Origin: Steroidobacteraceae bacterium
GTDB lineage: Bacteria; Pseudomonadota; Gammaproteobacteria; Steroidobacterales; Steroidobacteraceae
DNA: 47,099 nt
Reading direction: 5' to 3'
NCBI GenBank assembly: GCA_019683695.1
Contig: JADGHX010000011.1
Location: 1-47,099 of the forward strand
The notes beneath the pieces were generated by a model that saw nothing but the letters and a program-made list of their open reading frames with translations, did not search any database and was not told the DNA's origin. Shown here in pieces: positions 30,812 through 35,161 of the stretch; within the stretch, counting starts at the first letter, position 1, and every line of letters begins with the position of its first letter. The position numbers and the translations under genes are program-made.

Positions 30812-31984
30812 TTATTCGGCCGGCACGATCACATCTTCGCGCGCCGCGTTCACCACGGGCCGGAGCAGGCGCGAAAGACCCCGGACGCTGGCAAGCCGGA
30901 GCGCGGCGTCGCGCGCCAGGATTCCCGCGGGCGTGGCGGGCACGAGCCAGTCCGCGGCTCTGCGACCCGCTCGCCGCAGCTGCGCGAGCGGTGGACGCAC
31001 GCGATGCTCGTAACGCGCCAATGCCTCTTTCACGTCGGTAGTGCCATTCAGCTCTTCACCCAGCACATAGGCGGCAGCGAGGGACAGCGACGCACCCTGT
31101 CCGGGCAGCAGCGACACCGCCTGACACGCATCGCCGAGCAGCGCGATGCGTCCGCGATACCAGTGCGGCAACACGACCTGCGCGGCCTGCTCGTAGAGAA
31201 ACGTCGGCAGCGCCTTCGCTCGCTCCAGCACGAGCGGCACATACCAGCCGAGATCGCCATATTCGGCTTCGAGCGCTTCAAAGGGGGACTGCGGCGGAGC
31301 CGTCTGCGGCGCCCGATGCACGAAGAATGCGGCGACATTGCCTTCGCGCACGGCGAACAGCCCCACCTCACGCCTTGGCACGGACAGGATGTGAAGGTCG
31401 TTGCCCAACTCGTCCCGCACCTCGGGGGCGTGGATGACGAAGGTGCTCGTATGGAACCCCAGATAGTGCGACCAGACGCTCCCTTCGCCGAACACCAGAT
31501 CCCGGATGCGCGAGCGGACGCCGTCCGCACCGATCAGGACGTCCCCTCGCTCCACGTCTCCGGAGCTGAGCTCGACCTCCACATGCCCCACGGGCGTGCG
31601 CACGTACACGATGCTGCAGTGGAAGCGCAGTTGAACGTTGGAGGGAAGCTGCTCGAGGATCGCCTGCTCGAGGTCGGCGCGCATGAGGTTCATGAGCCGG
31701 CCGTCGAGCAACTCCTGAAGCGTGCGATACGGGAGACGCGACGTGGTGCGTCCCGATGCGTTGAGCCAGCGCACCGAGCTCATCTCGTACGCCAGCGGCA
31801 GCAAGCGCGGCATGAGGCCCATGCGGCGGGCCGCTTCGTAACCCGAGCCGAACAGCTGGATCAGGTAGCCCTCGCCGCGCGCGGCGCTGCCCTCATCGAG
31901 GATCGTCACCTGCCACCCCTTCTGGGCGAGACACCTGCCGAGTGTCAGACCCGCGATGCCGGCGCCAGCGATGAGGGCTTTCAT
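30812..31984 (-). CDS. FAD-dependent monooxygenase (PHBH-type)
   Basis: A 390-residue flavoprotein hydroxylase. The ATG at 31984 starts MKALIAGAGIAGLTLGRCLA with the dinucleotide-binding GxGxxG at the very N-terminus. The open frame extends 74 codons further but without protein-like sequence. VLIGADGVRSRIR is the DG motif and GRIALLGDACQAVSLLPGQG, continuing ASLSLAAAYVLG, is the GD motif that binds the FAD ribityl chain. It belongs with the tetracycline-oxygenase/UbiH-like group. The substrate is unknown. It is divergent from the aroG leader. Confidence 0.9.
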   Translation of the reverse strand: MKALIAGAGIAGLTLGRCLAQKGWQVTILDEGSAARGEGYLIQLFGSGYEAARRMGLMPRLLPLAYEMSSVRWLNASGRTTSRLPYRTLQELLDGRLMNLMRADLEQAILEQLPSNVQLRFHCSIVYVRTPVGHVEVELSSGDVERGDVLIGADGVRSRIRDLVFGEGSVWSHYLGFHTSTFVIHAPEVRDELGNDLHILSVPRREVGLFAVREGNVAAFFVHRAPQTAPPQSPFEALEAEYGDLGWYVPLVLERAKALPTFLYEQAAQVVLPHWYRGRIALLGDACQAVSLLPGQGASLSLAAAYVLGEELNGTTDVKEALARYEHRVRPPLAQLRRAGRRAADWLVPATPAGILARDAALRLASVRGLSRLLRPVVNAAREDVIVPAE

Positions 31985-32037: not shown

Positions 32038-32067
32038 TTGTCAGAAGCGCAAGCGCTGTGCTATTAC
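32038..32067 (+). promoter_or_regulatory. Candidate sigma-70 promoter of the aromatic leader and DAHP synthase gene
   Basis: TTGTCA (32038-32043), an 18-bp spacer and TATTAC (32062-32067) resemble the -35 and -10 hexamers. Transcription would start near 32074, only about three bases before the ATG of the leader peptide at 32077. That would explain the absence of a Shine-Dalgarno sequence there: the leader would be read from a near-leaderless mRNA. Confidence 0.55.
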
Positions 32068-32076
32068 TTCCCGCGC

Positions 32077-32160
32077 ATGAATTCCGCAGCCCGTTCCTAC
32101 CGCTATTTTTACTTTTTTTGGCCGCAAGCCATGGCGGTGGATGGGCTGCACTCGAACTGA
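32077..32160 (+). CDS. Aromatic-amino-acid leader peptide of an attenuator
   Basis: A 27-residue ORF with ATG at 32077 and TGA at 32158. Residues 8-15 are YRYFYFFW: three Tyr, three Phe and one Trp in eight codons (32098-32121). It sits between a promoter-like sequence and an intrinsic terminator that precedes the DAHP synthase gene. This is the layout of pheL/trpL-type leaders, in which a ribosome stalled for lack of charged tRNA prevents terminator formation. The mix of all three aromatic residues fits an enzyme that feeds all three pathways. The peptide itself probably has no other role. Confidence 0.82.
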   Translation: MNSAARSYRYFYFFWPQAMAVDGLHSN

Positions 32161-32201
32161 ACGCAAGACAGTCAACCGACGAGTAACCCTGAAAACCGCC
32201 A
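32121..32201 (+). promoter_or_regulatory. Alternative RNA pairings of the attenuator
   Basis: Segment 1, GCCGC (32121-32125), just after the Trp codon, can pair with GCGGT (32134-32138) in segment 2, with an 8-nt loop. Segment 2, TGGCGGT (32132-32138), can instead pair with ACCGCCA (32195-32201), which is part of the 5' arm of the terminator. A ribosome stalled on the YRYFYFFW codons would cover segment 1, free segment 2 and so favour the antiterminator. A further pairing, GCAGCCC (32086-32092) with GGGCTGC (32143-32149), encloses the aromatic codons. The pairings are read by eye. Confidence 0.6.
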
Positions 32202-32219
32202 GCCACCTGGCGGTTTTTT
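32192..32219 (+). terminator. Intrinsic terminator (attenuator) before the DAHP synthase gene
   Basis: AAAACCGCCAG (32192-32202), loop CCAC and CTGGCGGTTTT (32207-32217) form a perfect 11-bp stem followed by a T-run ending at 32219. It lies 34 bp before the GTG start of the DAHP synthase gene and 31 bp after the leader peptide stop. It is the clearest rho-independent terminator in the window. Confidence 0.9.
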
Positions 32220-32253
32220 GTTGCCGCGGGTGGCCCGAGAAAAGAGGCTCCCC

Positions 32254-33354
32254 GTGAACAGTCGCACGCTCAACACCCGCACCGACGACCTGCGCATCCG
32301 CGAGATCCGCGAGCTCATCACGCCCGAGGATCTCATGCGCGAGCTGCCCTGCACCGCGCGCGCGTCCGGCACCGTGACGGCCACGCGCGCCGCGCTCCAC
32401 GACATCCTGCACGGACGTGACGACCGGCTCGCCGTCGTGATCGGTCCCTGCTCGATTCACGATACTGCCGCCGCGAGGGAGTACGCCGGGCGTCTCGTGG
32501 AGCAACGCCGCCGGTTCGCGGGCACACTGGAAATCGTGATGCGCGTGTATTTCGAGAAGCCGCGCACGACCGTCGGCTGGAAGGGCCTCATCAACGATCC
32601 GCATCTCGACGGCAGCTTCCGCATCAACGAGGGCCTGCGCCTGGCGCGCGGCCTGCTGCTGGACGTGAACGAGCTCGGTCTGCCGGCCGGCTGCGAGTTC
32701 CTGGACATGATCACCCCGCAGTACATCGCGGACCTCGTGTCCTGGGGCGCCATCGGCGCGCGCACCACCGAGAGCCAGGTGCATCGCGAGCTCGCGTCGG
32801 GTCTCTCCTGCCCCGTGGGGTTCAAGAACGGTACGGATGGCAATGTGCGGATCGCCGTGGACGCGGTGCAGGCGGCCGCACACGTGCATCATTTCCTCGC
32901 CGTCACGAAGCAGGGTCGCAGCGCCATCGCCACCACGGCCGGCAACTCGGACTGCCATGTGATTCTCCGCGGCGGGAAGGTGCCCAATTTCGATGCGGAG
33001 AGTGTCGATGCGGCGTGCCAGGTCATTGCTGCCGCCCGGTTGCGCCCGATCGTGATGATCGATGCGAGCCACGGGAACAGCGGCAAGCGGCACGAGCGTC
33101 AGCCTCACGTGGTCGATGCCATCGCCGCGCAGATCGAGGCCGGCGACGCGCGCATCGGAGGTGTGATGATCGAGAGCCACCTCGTTGCCGGCCGGCAGGA
33201 TCTCGTGCCGGGCCGACCGCTCACCTACGGCCAGAGCATCACCGACGCCTGCGTAGATTGGAAGACGTCCGTCGCGATGCTGGAGCGGCTTGCCACCGCG
33301 GTGGAGAAGCGGCGTGCCGCGCTCGCCGTCACGCGTGCGAGAGGGGCCCGCTGA
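32254..33354 (+). CDS. aroG: 3-deoxy-7-phosphoheptulonate (DAHP) synthase, class I alpha (AroG/AroF type)
   Basis: Condenses phosphoenolpyruvate and erythrose 4-phosphate, the entry step of the shikimate pathway. The GTG at 32254 with AGAGG 6 nt upstream gives 366 residues. The open frame continues back into the terminator, so that part is not coding. Motifs are TDDLRIREIREL, VVIGPCSIHD (61-70, metal-ligand Cys66), RVYFEKPRTTVGWKGLINDP, GARTTESQVHRELASGL followed by SCPVGFKNGTDG, and IDASHGNSGK. Whether it is feedback-sensitive to Phe, Tyr or Trp cannot be assigned by eye. An attenuator precedes it. The 3' end overlaps the convergent permease gene by 26 bp. Confidence 0.96.
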   Translation: MNSRTLNTRTDDLRIREIRELITPEDLMRELPCTARASGTVTATRAALHDILHGRDDRLAVVIGPCSIHDTAAAREYAGRLVEQRRRFAGTLEIVMRVYFEKPRTTVGWKGLINDPHLDGSFRINEGLRLARGLLLDVNELGLPAGCEFLDMITPQYIADLVSWGAIGARTTESQVHRELASGLSCPVGFKNGTDGNVRIAVDAVQAAAHVHHFLAVTKQGRSAIATTAGNSDCHVILRGGKVPNFDAESVDAACQVIAAARLRPIVMIDASHGNSGKRHERQPHVVDAIAAQIEAGDARIGGVMIESHLVAGRQDLVPGRPLTYGQSITDACVDWKTSVAMLERLATAVEKRRAALAVTRARGAR

Positions 33355-35161
33355 GCCAGATCCACTCCGCGAGCCACACGCTCACGACGCTGATGAGGAT
33401 CGTGAGCGGAACGCCTACGCGCAGGAAATCGCCGAATGTGTACTGCCCGGGGTTGAGGATCAGCAGATTGCCGTGATGCCCGATGGGCGTGAGGAACGCC
33501 ACGACCGCCCCGAGCGCCGTGCACACGATGAACGGTTGCGGTGGCAGACCCAGTGCCACCGCCACCGCGAGTGAGATCGGGCCGAGCAGCACCACGGTGG
33601 CGGCGTCGGACAGGATTTGCGTGAGCAAGGCCGCCGACCAGAACAGCGCCATCAGCACGGCGGTGGGGCTCCACCCCGCCGTCAGCTGCAGCAGGTGATC
33701 CGCGAAGTAGGCGGCGGTGCCGGTCTTCTCCATCGCGAGGCCGAGCGGGACGACCCCGGCGATCATCACGTAGATGCGCGTGTCGATTTCCCGATAGGCC
33801 TGTTCCACGCCGACGCATCGTGTGACGACGAGCGCCACCGCCCCGGCAAGGAAGGCGAACTGCACGGGCATGATGCGCGAGGCGGCGGCCGCCACGACCG
33901 CGACAACGATGCCGAGGGCGATGGCCGCACGGCGCCGCCGTCGCTCCTCCGCCGCGAAGGGCACCATCATCAGAAAGCCGCGATGATCGGCCAGCTCCGC
34001 AAACGTGCGCGGCGCGCCCCAGAGCACGAGCAGATCGCCCTCGCGCAAGCGCACCTGCGAGAGCTCCTCGCGCATCCAGCCCTCGCGCCGCCAGAGCCCG
34101 ACGACCACGACGCCCAGCGTCTTCAGGAAATCCACGTGGCCGATGGTGCGGCCCACGAAGGGCGAGTGAGGGGCCACCACCACCTGCACGAGCTGATATT
34201 CCTCCGTCTTGTCCGCGCTCTTTGGCTTCGGCTTCTTGCGCTTGCGGACGGCTTCGTCGGCGTATTTCGCAATGGCGTGCAGGGCGAGCCCGGGCTCGTC
34301 GCGAATGGATGCGAACTCATCCGGCGAGGCGCGCACGATGAGCACATCGCCCGCGCGCAGCAGCGCGTTCTCGCCGCTGGGCTCGCGATGCGGGGTGCCT
34401 TCCCGAAGCCACTCGACGATGCTGAGGCGCCGCTGGAAGTGCTCCTGGAACTCCGTGATCGACTTGTCGATCCAGGGCGAATCCTTCTCCACGATGAGCT
34501 CGGTGTAGTAGCGATCGAGCCGGAGGTAGTCCGTCTCCGCCATGCGCGCCACGTGCCTCGGCAGGAGCCAGCGGCCGAGTGTCATGTAGAGGATGCCGAG
34601 AACGACCAGCGCAAGGCCGATGGGCGTGATGCTGAACACACCCAGGCTCGCGTCCGTCTGCCGTTCGAGCAGGTTGTTGGCGAGCAGGAAGGCCGGAGCG
34701 CTGAAGAGCGTGAGCGTGGTGCCGAGCGATGCGGCGAGTGACATGGGCATGAGCAGCCGCGAGGCCGGCAGATGCTGCTCGCGCGCGAGGCGCATCAGAA
34801 TGGGCAGCATCATCGCCGTGACCATCAGGTGATGGGTGAATGCGGCCATGCCGGCGACGGCGGGCATGAGGACAACGATCGCGCGCCACTCACGGGCTCC
34901 GGCCGCGCGGGCGATCATCGCACCGATGCGCTCGGTGAGGCCGGTGGCGCTCAACGCCGCGGAGATGACGAACACGGCGGCGACGATGATGGCGGGCTCG
35001 CTCGAGAAGCCCGACAACGCTTCGGCGGGCGTGAGAATGCCGGTGAGGGCGAGCGCCAGCACCGTCAGCATCGCCGCCACATCGATGCGGACCCGTTCGC
35101 TGATGAACAGGGCGAGCGTCCCGACCAGGATCAGGAGAAAGACAATCTGCTGGGTTTCCAT
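33329..35161 (-). CDS. SLC13/DASS-type permease with TrkA-C (RCK_C) domains
   Basis: A 610-residue inner-membrane anion transporter. N-terminal helices begin IVFLLILVGTLALFISERVR, and AALSATGLTERIGAMIARAA is typical of the citrate transporter/ArsB-like family. The central soluble part (about 205-390) carries two TrkA-C domains (EYQLVQVVVAPHSPFVGRTI; LSQVRLREGDLLVLWGAPRT). The C-terminal helices end with LSDAATVVLLGPISLAVAVA and FLTPIGHHGNLLILNPGQYT. Relatives move sulfate, dicarboxylates or other anions; the substrate here is undetermined. It overlaps the end of aroG by 26 bp, tail to tail. Confidence 0.93.
   Translation of the reverse strand: METQQIVFLLILVGTLALFISERVRIDVAAMLTVLALALTGILTPAEALSGFSSEPAIIVAAVFVISAALSATGLTERIGAMIARAAGAREWRAIVVLMPAVAGMAAFTHHLMVTAMMLPILMRLAREQHLPASRLLMPMSLAASLGTTLTLFSAPAFLLANNLLERQTDASLGVFSITPIGLALVVLGILYMTLGRWLLPRHVARMAETDYLRLDRYYTELIVEKDSPWIDKSITEFQEHFQRRLSIVEWLREGTPHREPSGENALLRAGDVLIVRASPDEFASIRDEPGLALHAIAKYADEAVRKRKKPKPKSADKTEEYQLVQVVVAPHSPFVGRTIGHVDFLKTLGVVVVGLWRREGWMREELSQVRLREGDLLVLWGAPRTFAELADHRGFLMMVPFAAEERRRRRAAIALGIVVAVVAAAASRIMPVQFAFLAGAVALVVTRCVGVEQAYREIDTRIYVMIAGVVPLGLAMEKTGTAAYFADHLLQLTAGWSPTAVLMALFWSAALLTQILSDAATVVLLGPISLAVAVALGLPPQPFIVCTALGAVVAFLTPIGHHGNLLILNPGQYTFGDFLRVGVPLTILISVVSVWLAEWIWLSGPLSHA

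Follow-up and report, generated by a model that had tools for sequence, protein, structure and literature searches.

Ribosome-mediated attenuation is a classical mechanism, and enterobacterial leaders such as thrL (Thr, Ile) and ilvL (Ile, Val, Leu) each serve more than one end product of a common pathway, these belonging to the aspartate and branched-chain families rather than to the aromatic one. DAHP (3-deoxy-7-phosphoheptulonate) synthase determines how much carbon enters the synthesis of all aromatic amino acids, and its control in Escherichia coli is split over three isoenzymes, with TyrR and TrpR as repressors. The subject here is a locus in a 47,099-nucleotide stretch of DNA from a Steroidobacteraceae bacterium (GenBank assembly GCA_019683695.1, contig JADGHX010000011.1, positions 1 to 47,099; this whole stretch is called the window), in which a short open reading frame (ORF) rich in Tyr, Phe and Trp codons and an intrinsic terminator stand directly ahead of aroG, the gene of a type I DAHP synthase. 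Judged from its sequence, from its relatives and from modelled RNA folding, the arrangement is very probably a ribosome-mediated transcription attenuator for aroG, through which the cell can probably sense a shortage of aromatic amino acids and switch the gene on.

The nearest described system is aroR-aroF of Corynebacterium glutamicum, in which a leader with Phe-Tyr-Phe precedes DAHP synthase and stalling upon Phe limitation is reported to raise transcription (PMC11802643; PMC4046766), while Tyr supply is reportedly without effect (PMC11802643). An aromatic leader ahead of a DAHP synthase thus has a precedent, and the ineffectiveness of Tyr calls for caution, three kinds of codon not necessarily meaning three sensed amino acids. 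Compared by reported function and residue content, aroR is alike in being a short aromatic-codon leader ahead of a DAHP synthase operon, but it is actinobacterial and no Trp codon is mentioned for it. The pheA, pheST and trp attenuators of E. coli also have leader peptides with the cognate codons (PMC11802643), but each is concerned with a single amino acid and with other target genes. Sinorhizobium meliloti trpL (rnTrpL) has a leaderless leader ORF in an attenuator (PMC7298713; PMC10117765), a property which in our case is suggested by the position of the −10 box, but there it is only Trp that is sensed and trpE(G) that is the target. Upstream ORFs with aromatic codons have been predicted elsewhere too. 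One is uORFC-13-1, which stands ahead of the DAHP synthase gene aroF, contains one or more Phe codons and is provided with a ribosome-binding site; its reported occurrence is limited to Acholeplasma and environmental sequence (PMC8632094). Two other candidates, situated at shikimate genes, contain F and Y codons (PMC6429828). For E. coli aroF, attenuation had been suggested before (Camakaris 1980, via PMC2659441 and PMC8632094). The best-ranked matches of a literature search in open-licence papers contained no proteobacterial aroG leader. What appears to be new is thus not the aromatic leader before a DAHP synthase, for which Corynebacterium aroR is the nearest precedent, but a leader with all three aromatic residues that is often apparently leaderless, together with its broad alpha-, beta- and gamma-proteobacterial family. 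The initial annotation, made from the letters of the window, could name no textbook case of a mixed leader, a statement which aroR qualifies.

The locus is composed of the following features:
32038-32043 / 32062-32067, forward strand: promoter-like pair TTGTCA / TATTAC with an 18-nt spacer (sequence reading and looser pair scan)
32077-32160 (ATG 32077, TGA 32158-32160), forward strand: leader peptide ORF of 27 codons, MNSAARSYRYFYFFWPQAMAVDGLHSN (sequence; layout kept in relatives)
32098-32121, forward strand: putative control codons Y R Y F Y F F W (sequence, folding, aromatic enrichment upstream of segment 2)
32086-32149, forward strand: predicted protecting (1:2) hairpin, which would sequester segment 2 in the absence of a stalled ribosome (folding, −34.6 kcal/mol)
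32132-32138, forward strand: segment 2, TGGCGGT, predicted 5' strand of the antiterminator, within the leader ORF (sequence, covariation, folding)
32191-32202, forward strand: segment 3, 5' arm of the terminator, of which 32195-32201 complements segment 2 (sequence, alignment)
32192-32219, forward strand: intrinsic terminator with 11-bp stem, CCAC loop and T-run 32214-32219 (sequence, folding; hairpin conserved)
32241-32247, forward strand: AAAGAGG, likely ribosome-binding site of aroG (read from sequence)
32254-33354, forward strand: aroG, type I DAHP synthase, GTG start, 366 aa (profile matches)

The arrangement of leader, terminator and aroG is real and shows two features of the attenuator class, namely an abundance of end-product codons in a short ORF and an intrinsic terminator between leader and structural gene. 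Seven of the 27 leader codons are aromatic (Y32098, Y32104, F32107, Y32110, F32113, F32116 and W32119). Segment 2 (TGGCGGT) and 32195-32201 (ACCGCCA) are complementary as a perfect 7-mer, and the terminator stem is a perfect 11 bp (32192-32202/32207-32217), followed 34 nt past its T-run by GTG 32254 of aroG. In folding calculations 32180-32225 reached −22.5 kcal/mol (z −5.7), which was equalled by 0 of 200 shuffles, and for the leader 32074-32225 z was −4.7. The gene product matches TIGR00034 above cut-off (532.1 bits, E 4e-160) and PF00793 (E 9e-95), and its score against the AroG-specific NF006723 (547.5 bits) is slightly below the cut-off of 568 bits. A short ORF with at least five of eight residues aromatic occurs at just one place on both strands of the window, and there a terminator follows it. 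Chance as the origin of this combination was rejected, since in 100 Markov-1 simulated strands of the same length such ORFs averaged 0.04 per strand and were never accompanied by a terminator. It should be noted that a pattern-based terminator scan listed no terminator at the locus, which is attributed to its T-run rule, the T-run here being part of the stem. What the initial annotation had read in these letters, from the promoter-like pair and the ORF to the 11-bp terminator and the ribosome site of aroG, was found again in all these parts; its pairing of 32121-32125 with 32134-32138 exists too (5 bp including one G-U, −7.8 kcal/mol), though it is far smaller than the protecting hairpin that folding predicts.

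From these elements a mechanism can be proposed, of which the start site, the translation of the leader, the stalling and the amino acid sensed in practice are what we infer. RNA polymerase would start at or beside the leader ATG and a ribosome would translate the leader. When charged Tyr-, Phe- or Trp-tRNA is scarce the ribosome would stall within YRYFYFFW and hold the hairpin 32086-32149 open, leaving 32132-32138 free to pair with 32195-32201; with the antiterminator already paired, the terminator would come too late and aroG would be transcribed. When all three tRNAs are charged the ribosome would proceed over segment 2 or depart, and segment 2 would be either covered or held in the 1:2 hairpin, so that formation of the terminator would end transcription at about 32219.

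Support comes from relatives, in which leader, terminator, competing pairings and the gene behind them can be compared. Forty-five elements were aligned (alignment A1) and made into a covariance model (R1), with which 194 matches were found; 166 were kept and 28 under 95 nt omitted (24 opposite-strand terminator palindromes, the partial best matches L255, L257 and L258, and one other place in L185). Subtraction of 4 identical elements leaves 162, and of 8 without a DAHP synthase 154 non-redundant linked elements. Linkage to DAHP synthase is 158/166 overall, which includes 52 elements fetched by DAHP synthase similarity, and hence linked by construction, and 4 duplicates; the independent figure is that 102 of the 110 elements found by R1, and non-identical to the DAHP synthase search set, directly precede a DAHP synthase gene on the same strand. 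Conservation of the aromatic codons in relatives, the lack of which the initial annotation had named as a result that would refute the attenuator, was found in 150 of the 154 elements, the window included, at the level of at least four aromatic residues in eight (99/102 in the independent subset). A perfect hairpin before a T-run is present in 151 of 154, the strict terminator rule failing at L069, L245 and L248. In the 111 elements whose segment match is clear, aromatic codons account for 741/1695 positions ahead of segment 2 and for 23/874 from segment 2 to the stop codon. Segment 2 is separated from the last aromatic codon by at least 12 nt in 75 of 104 cases, by 9–11 nt in 21 and by less in 8.

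Segment 2 is conserved at the RNA level. A leader stretch of at least 6 nt identical to the 3' arm of the terminator is found in 115 of 151 elements; three T-rich stretches among them are probably not segment 2. The GGCGG of segment 2 is distributed over the three reading frames as 84/14/10, one off-frame case (L032) being probably a second copy mistaken for segment 2; the nucleotides are therefore kept while the amino acids change, and for the same reason a conserved peptide alone was rejected as explanation. In A1 the pairing of segments 2 and 3 is formed in 87.9% of cells, as compared with 17–61% when one side is slid by 1–3 columns, and changes on both sides were counted in 13 cells versus 4.6 in shuffles (0/500 shuffles equal). 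The variable base beside the core is paired in 98 of 138 elements, where 82.1 are expected (0/10,000 permutations). The pairing 32132-32138/32195-32201, which the initial annotation had listed among its competing pairings, thus has conserved counterparts with some changes on both sides, and a mutually exclusive antiterminator, as predicted from sequence and folding, seems to be a common property of the elements. What is conserved in A1 is chiefly the class of the codons, segment 2, a TCCC-type motif and the terminator. The TCCC-type motif is located directly 5' of the terminator (A1 columns about 136–145, in the window about 32185-32190); many of the aligned elements have it, and it might lengthen the antiterminator.

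Folding of the nascent RNA of the window was calculated on the assumption that the ribosome covers 14 bases upstream and 15 bases downstream of the first P-site base. Without a ribosome the large hairpin 32086-32149 conceals 32132-32138 and the terminator forms. With the A site at each of the seven aromatic codons, RNA up to 32202 and no pairing around the ribosome, the predicted antiterminator probability is 0.97; at the next codon (Pro 32122) it is 0.08 and at four later codons tried 0, so that the run of control codons would end where predicted stalling stops working. For the family, 147 of the 154 linked elements were folded with the ribosome at the middle aromatic codon, and the terminator arm was paired upstream with a median probability of 0.99, as compared with 0.55 when the stretch before the terminator was shuffled (observed above shuffled in 2819 of 2940 comparisons).

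Several results weigh against the attenuator as just described. Among the elements, the segment match is 5 nt or less in 36 of 151, and 8 of the 110 found by R1 have no DAHP synthase behind them: L164 lies at a contig end, L175, L176 and L250 are false matches without an aromatic leader, and L251, L253, L254 and L256 have an aromatic leader ahead of another gene. Not all measures of covariation exceed their controls: in A1 the number of pairs changed on both sides (2 vs 1.7, 380/500) and that of further pair types (6 vs 4.9, 42/500) are within the range of the shuffles, and the second variable base, on the other side of the core, covaries weakly in the 138 elements (41 paired vs 35.4, 83/10,000), where these shuffles and permutations, as well as those mentioned above, ignore shared ancestry. 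In the window, once pairing around the ribosome is allowed, the antiterminator reaches only 0.26 at F32116 and 0.001 at W32119, and a ribosome near the leader end (N32155) gives 0.54. Extension of the RNA to 32213 spreads the stalled states over 0.22–0.96, and with the RNA through 32219 the terminator is favoured in every state run; the switch must therefore be kinetic, its outcome being set by timing. Finally, among the 147 elements the 5' arm is paired upstream (>0.5) already without a ribosome in 66%, and with a ribosome at the stop codon in 63%. The protecting 1:2 hairpin, strong in the window, is therefore no family rule.

The leader mRNA probably begins at or near its start codon. In the window the −10 box ends 9 nt before the leader ATG, which would place the transcription start at about 32074-32076 and make the predicted transcript leaderless or nearly so. 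A strict sigma-70 scan reported no promoter site at 32038-32067, because the −10 box ends in C and lacks the required final T, while a looser pair scan ranks TTGTCA/TATTAC best. In a promoter scan of 149 elements a −10 box ending 5–12 nt before the ATG was found in 70 of 115 confident calls versus 40 of 362 in shuffled sequence. A −10 box 25–45 nt upstream occurred in 34 of 115 versus 105 of 362; since shuffled sequence yields as large a share, the group, whose members are Burkholderiales, has only its often high scores to speak for it. Shine-Dalgarno-like 4-mers, counted without a control comparison, were seen in 1 of the 54 leaders with enough upstream sequence from a list of 55 loci. From the position of the −10 box and the few such 4-mers, most leaders of this type are probably leaderless or nearly so.

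Which amino acids are sensed is less certain than that there is an attenuator. The initial annotation had one leader sense all three aromatic products, and all three kinds of codon are indeed present in the window; codons are, however, no proof of sensing. Among the 150 leaders with conserved aromatic codons F and Y are found together in 143, W in just 90 and all three in 88 (93, 52 and 51 of 99 in the independent subset). It is a serious possibility, if on the doubtful side, that the same attenuator responds to no more than two of the three amino acids, or to a single one (Phe most likely, Tyr perhaps), and that the single Trp codon at the end of the run, or the Tyr codons, are incidental. 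Such a restriction would fit with W being upstream of segment 2 in only 59 of 111 elements, with W32119 being the last codon at which predicted stalling works, and fails once pairing around the ribosome is allowed, and with C. glutamicum aroR, where only Phe limitation is reported to act in spite of Phe-Tyr-Phe (PMC11802643); it would not explain why all three residues recur in 88 leaders, including those of Bradyrhizobium, Paraburkholderia and Xanthomonas, or why, without pairing around the ribosome, W32119 equals the other codons in predicted effect. On balance we lean moderately to the view that a shortage of Trp alone suffices to switch the attenuator of aroG.

A more far-reaching proposal, on which we are nearly evenly divided and which is therefore offered tentatively, is that the elements form an uncatalogued alpha-, beta- and gamma-proteobacterial RNA family, in which one often leaderless leader would work as an OR gate for the charging state of the three aromatic tRNAs (Tyr, Phe, Trp) and so set the entry into the shikimate pathway, codon order weighting each amino acid and the run ending where stalling fails. 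Many proteobacteria (e.g., Burkholderia, Xanthomonas, Bradyrhizobium, Mesorhizobium) appear to read aromatic tRNA charging directly, by means of one RNA. The set of elements is natural material for how the order of leader codons weights several amino acids, and the leader is a control point for aromatic production strains.

It is very improbable that the leader is instead a real small protein or a trans-acting RNA, with the terminator ending its own transcript and aroG driven mainly from elsewhere: S. meliloti rnTrpL and peTrpL do act in trans (PMC7298713; PMC10117765) and the layout of the leader is conserved, but the peptides vary widely outside the aromatic run, segment 2 is read in three frames and a DAHP synthase stands behind 102 of the 110 independently found elements. 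Least probable of all is control of aroG by a TyrR- or TrpR-like DNA- or RNA-binding regulator, of the kind that represses E. coli aroH and aroF (PMC11802643), or by a metabolite riboswitch, with the leader ORF as by-product, because the conservation is concentrated in codon class, segment 2, TCCC-type motif and terminator, and a scan of the window and 20 relatives found no Rfam family at gathering score (no operator search was made).

The attenuator elements are widely but unevenly distributed. For the search, loci L002-L099 comprised 80 named and 18 other loci, of which 54 were passed to R1, and 42 of the 45 training sequences belong to the 80 named loci; the samples of the window's family, of the Bradyrhizobium class and of the Paraburkholderia order each include a few training genomes. 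In its own genome the window locus is the one convincing match (E 6e-20), the next (E 0.03) being partial. In the window's family R1 matched over the full model at E <= 1e-4 in 18 of 100 genomes, the own one included. A sample of the class gave matches at E <= 0.01 in 107 of 369 genomes, with 7 strong full-length ones (at least 59 bits), most others listed covering the terminator end only. In the Bradyrhizobium class (that of the genome of L028) 16 of 385 genomes matched at E <= 1e-5, the two weakest (L175 and L176) without an aromatic leader, and in the Paraburkholderia order (that of the genome of L025) 85 of 300, 81 with the full model, of which 4 stand before another gene. Among the best 80 named DAHP synthase loci 57 matched at E <= 1e-4, which is not an independent count because the 42 training sequences are included. 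The positive loci are from Burkholderia, Massilia, Cupriavidus, Xanthomonas, Stenotrophomonas, Dyella and Rhodanobacter, and further from Bradyrhizobium, Mesorhizobium, Devosia, Methylosinus and Leisingera; at the same threshold the Pantoea, Erwinia and Pectobacterium loci among these 80 had no R1 element. The element is present at L005, L018 and L080. The Rfam family Phe_leader (RF01859) was considered for the window and rejected (19.4 bits, E 0.72, versus a gathering score of 55 bits).

The genome of the window also encodes a class II DAHP synthase (G000:C209:6626-7933), so that the enzyme under the putative control of the leader is an additional one; the class II enzyme, which was found in 35 of the 40 genomes searched, the own one included, may supply a base level. 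A protein match to AroG was obtained in 16 of these 40 genomes: in five, the own one among them, the identity is at least 62%, in nine it is 49–53%, and in two the match reaches only E about 1e-4. Seven of the nine genomes with a type I DAHP synthase-like protein of 49–53% identity (G002, G005, G014, G018, G019, G023 and G024), all of the window's family, were searched with R1 and gave no match, which indicates that the leader follows one DAHP synthase subtype.

Some elements and loci fall outside this pattern. At L251:1396-1561 (forward strand), and likewise at L253, L254 and L256, an aromatic leader (MITFSAVFNAYFYWYRSS... or near) and a terminator precede an ORF of 204–206 aa, the product of which, in the case of L251, has no Pfam match above cut-off; this type of element is possibly an aromatic attenuator of another gene. 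In L075, from an Anaerolineae metagenome-assembled genome, an aromatic-rich ORF (MSRYFSFFSWYGYFAAGQ...) stands before a DAHP synthase, about 200–110 bases ahead of the match start at 2001; its hairpin differs by eye, R1 gives no match to it, and the leader may be of independent origin or have been acquired by transfer. In the window the aroG locus is flanked by two genes on the reverse strand, at 30812 to about 31990 and at 33329-35161, the translations of which, judged by reading their motifs, look like an FAD-dependent monooxygenase and an SLC13-type transporter with TrkA-C-like domains, respectively.

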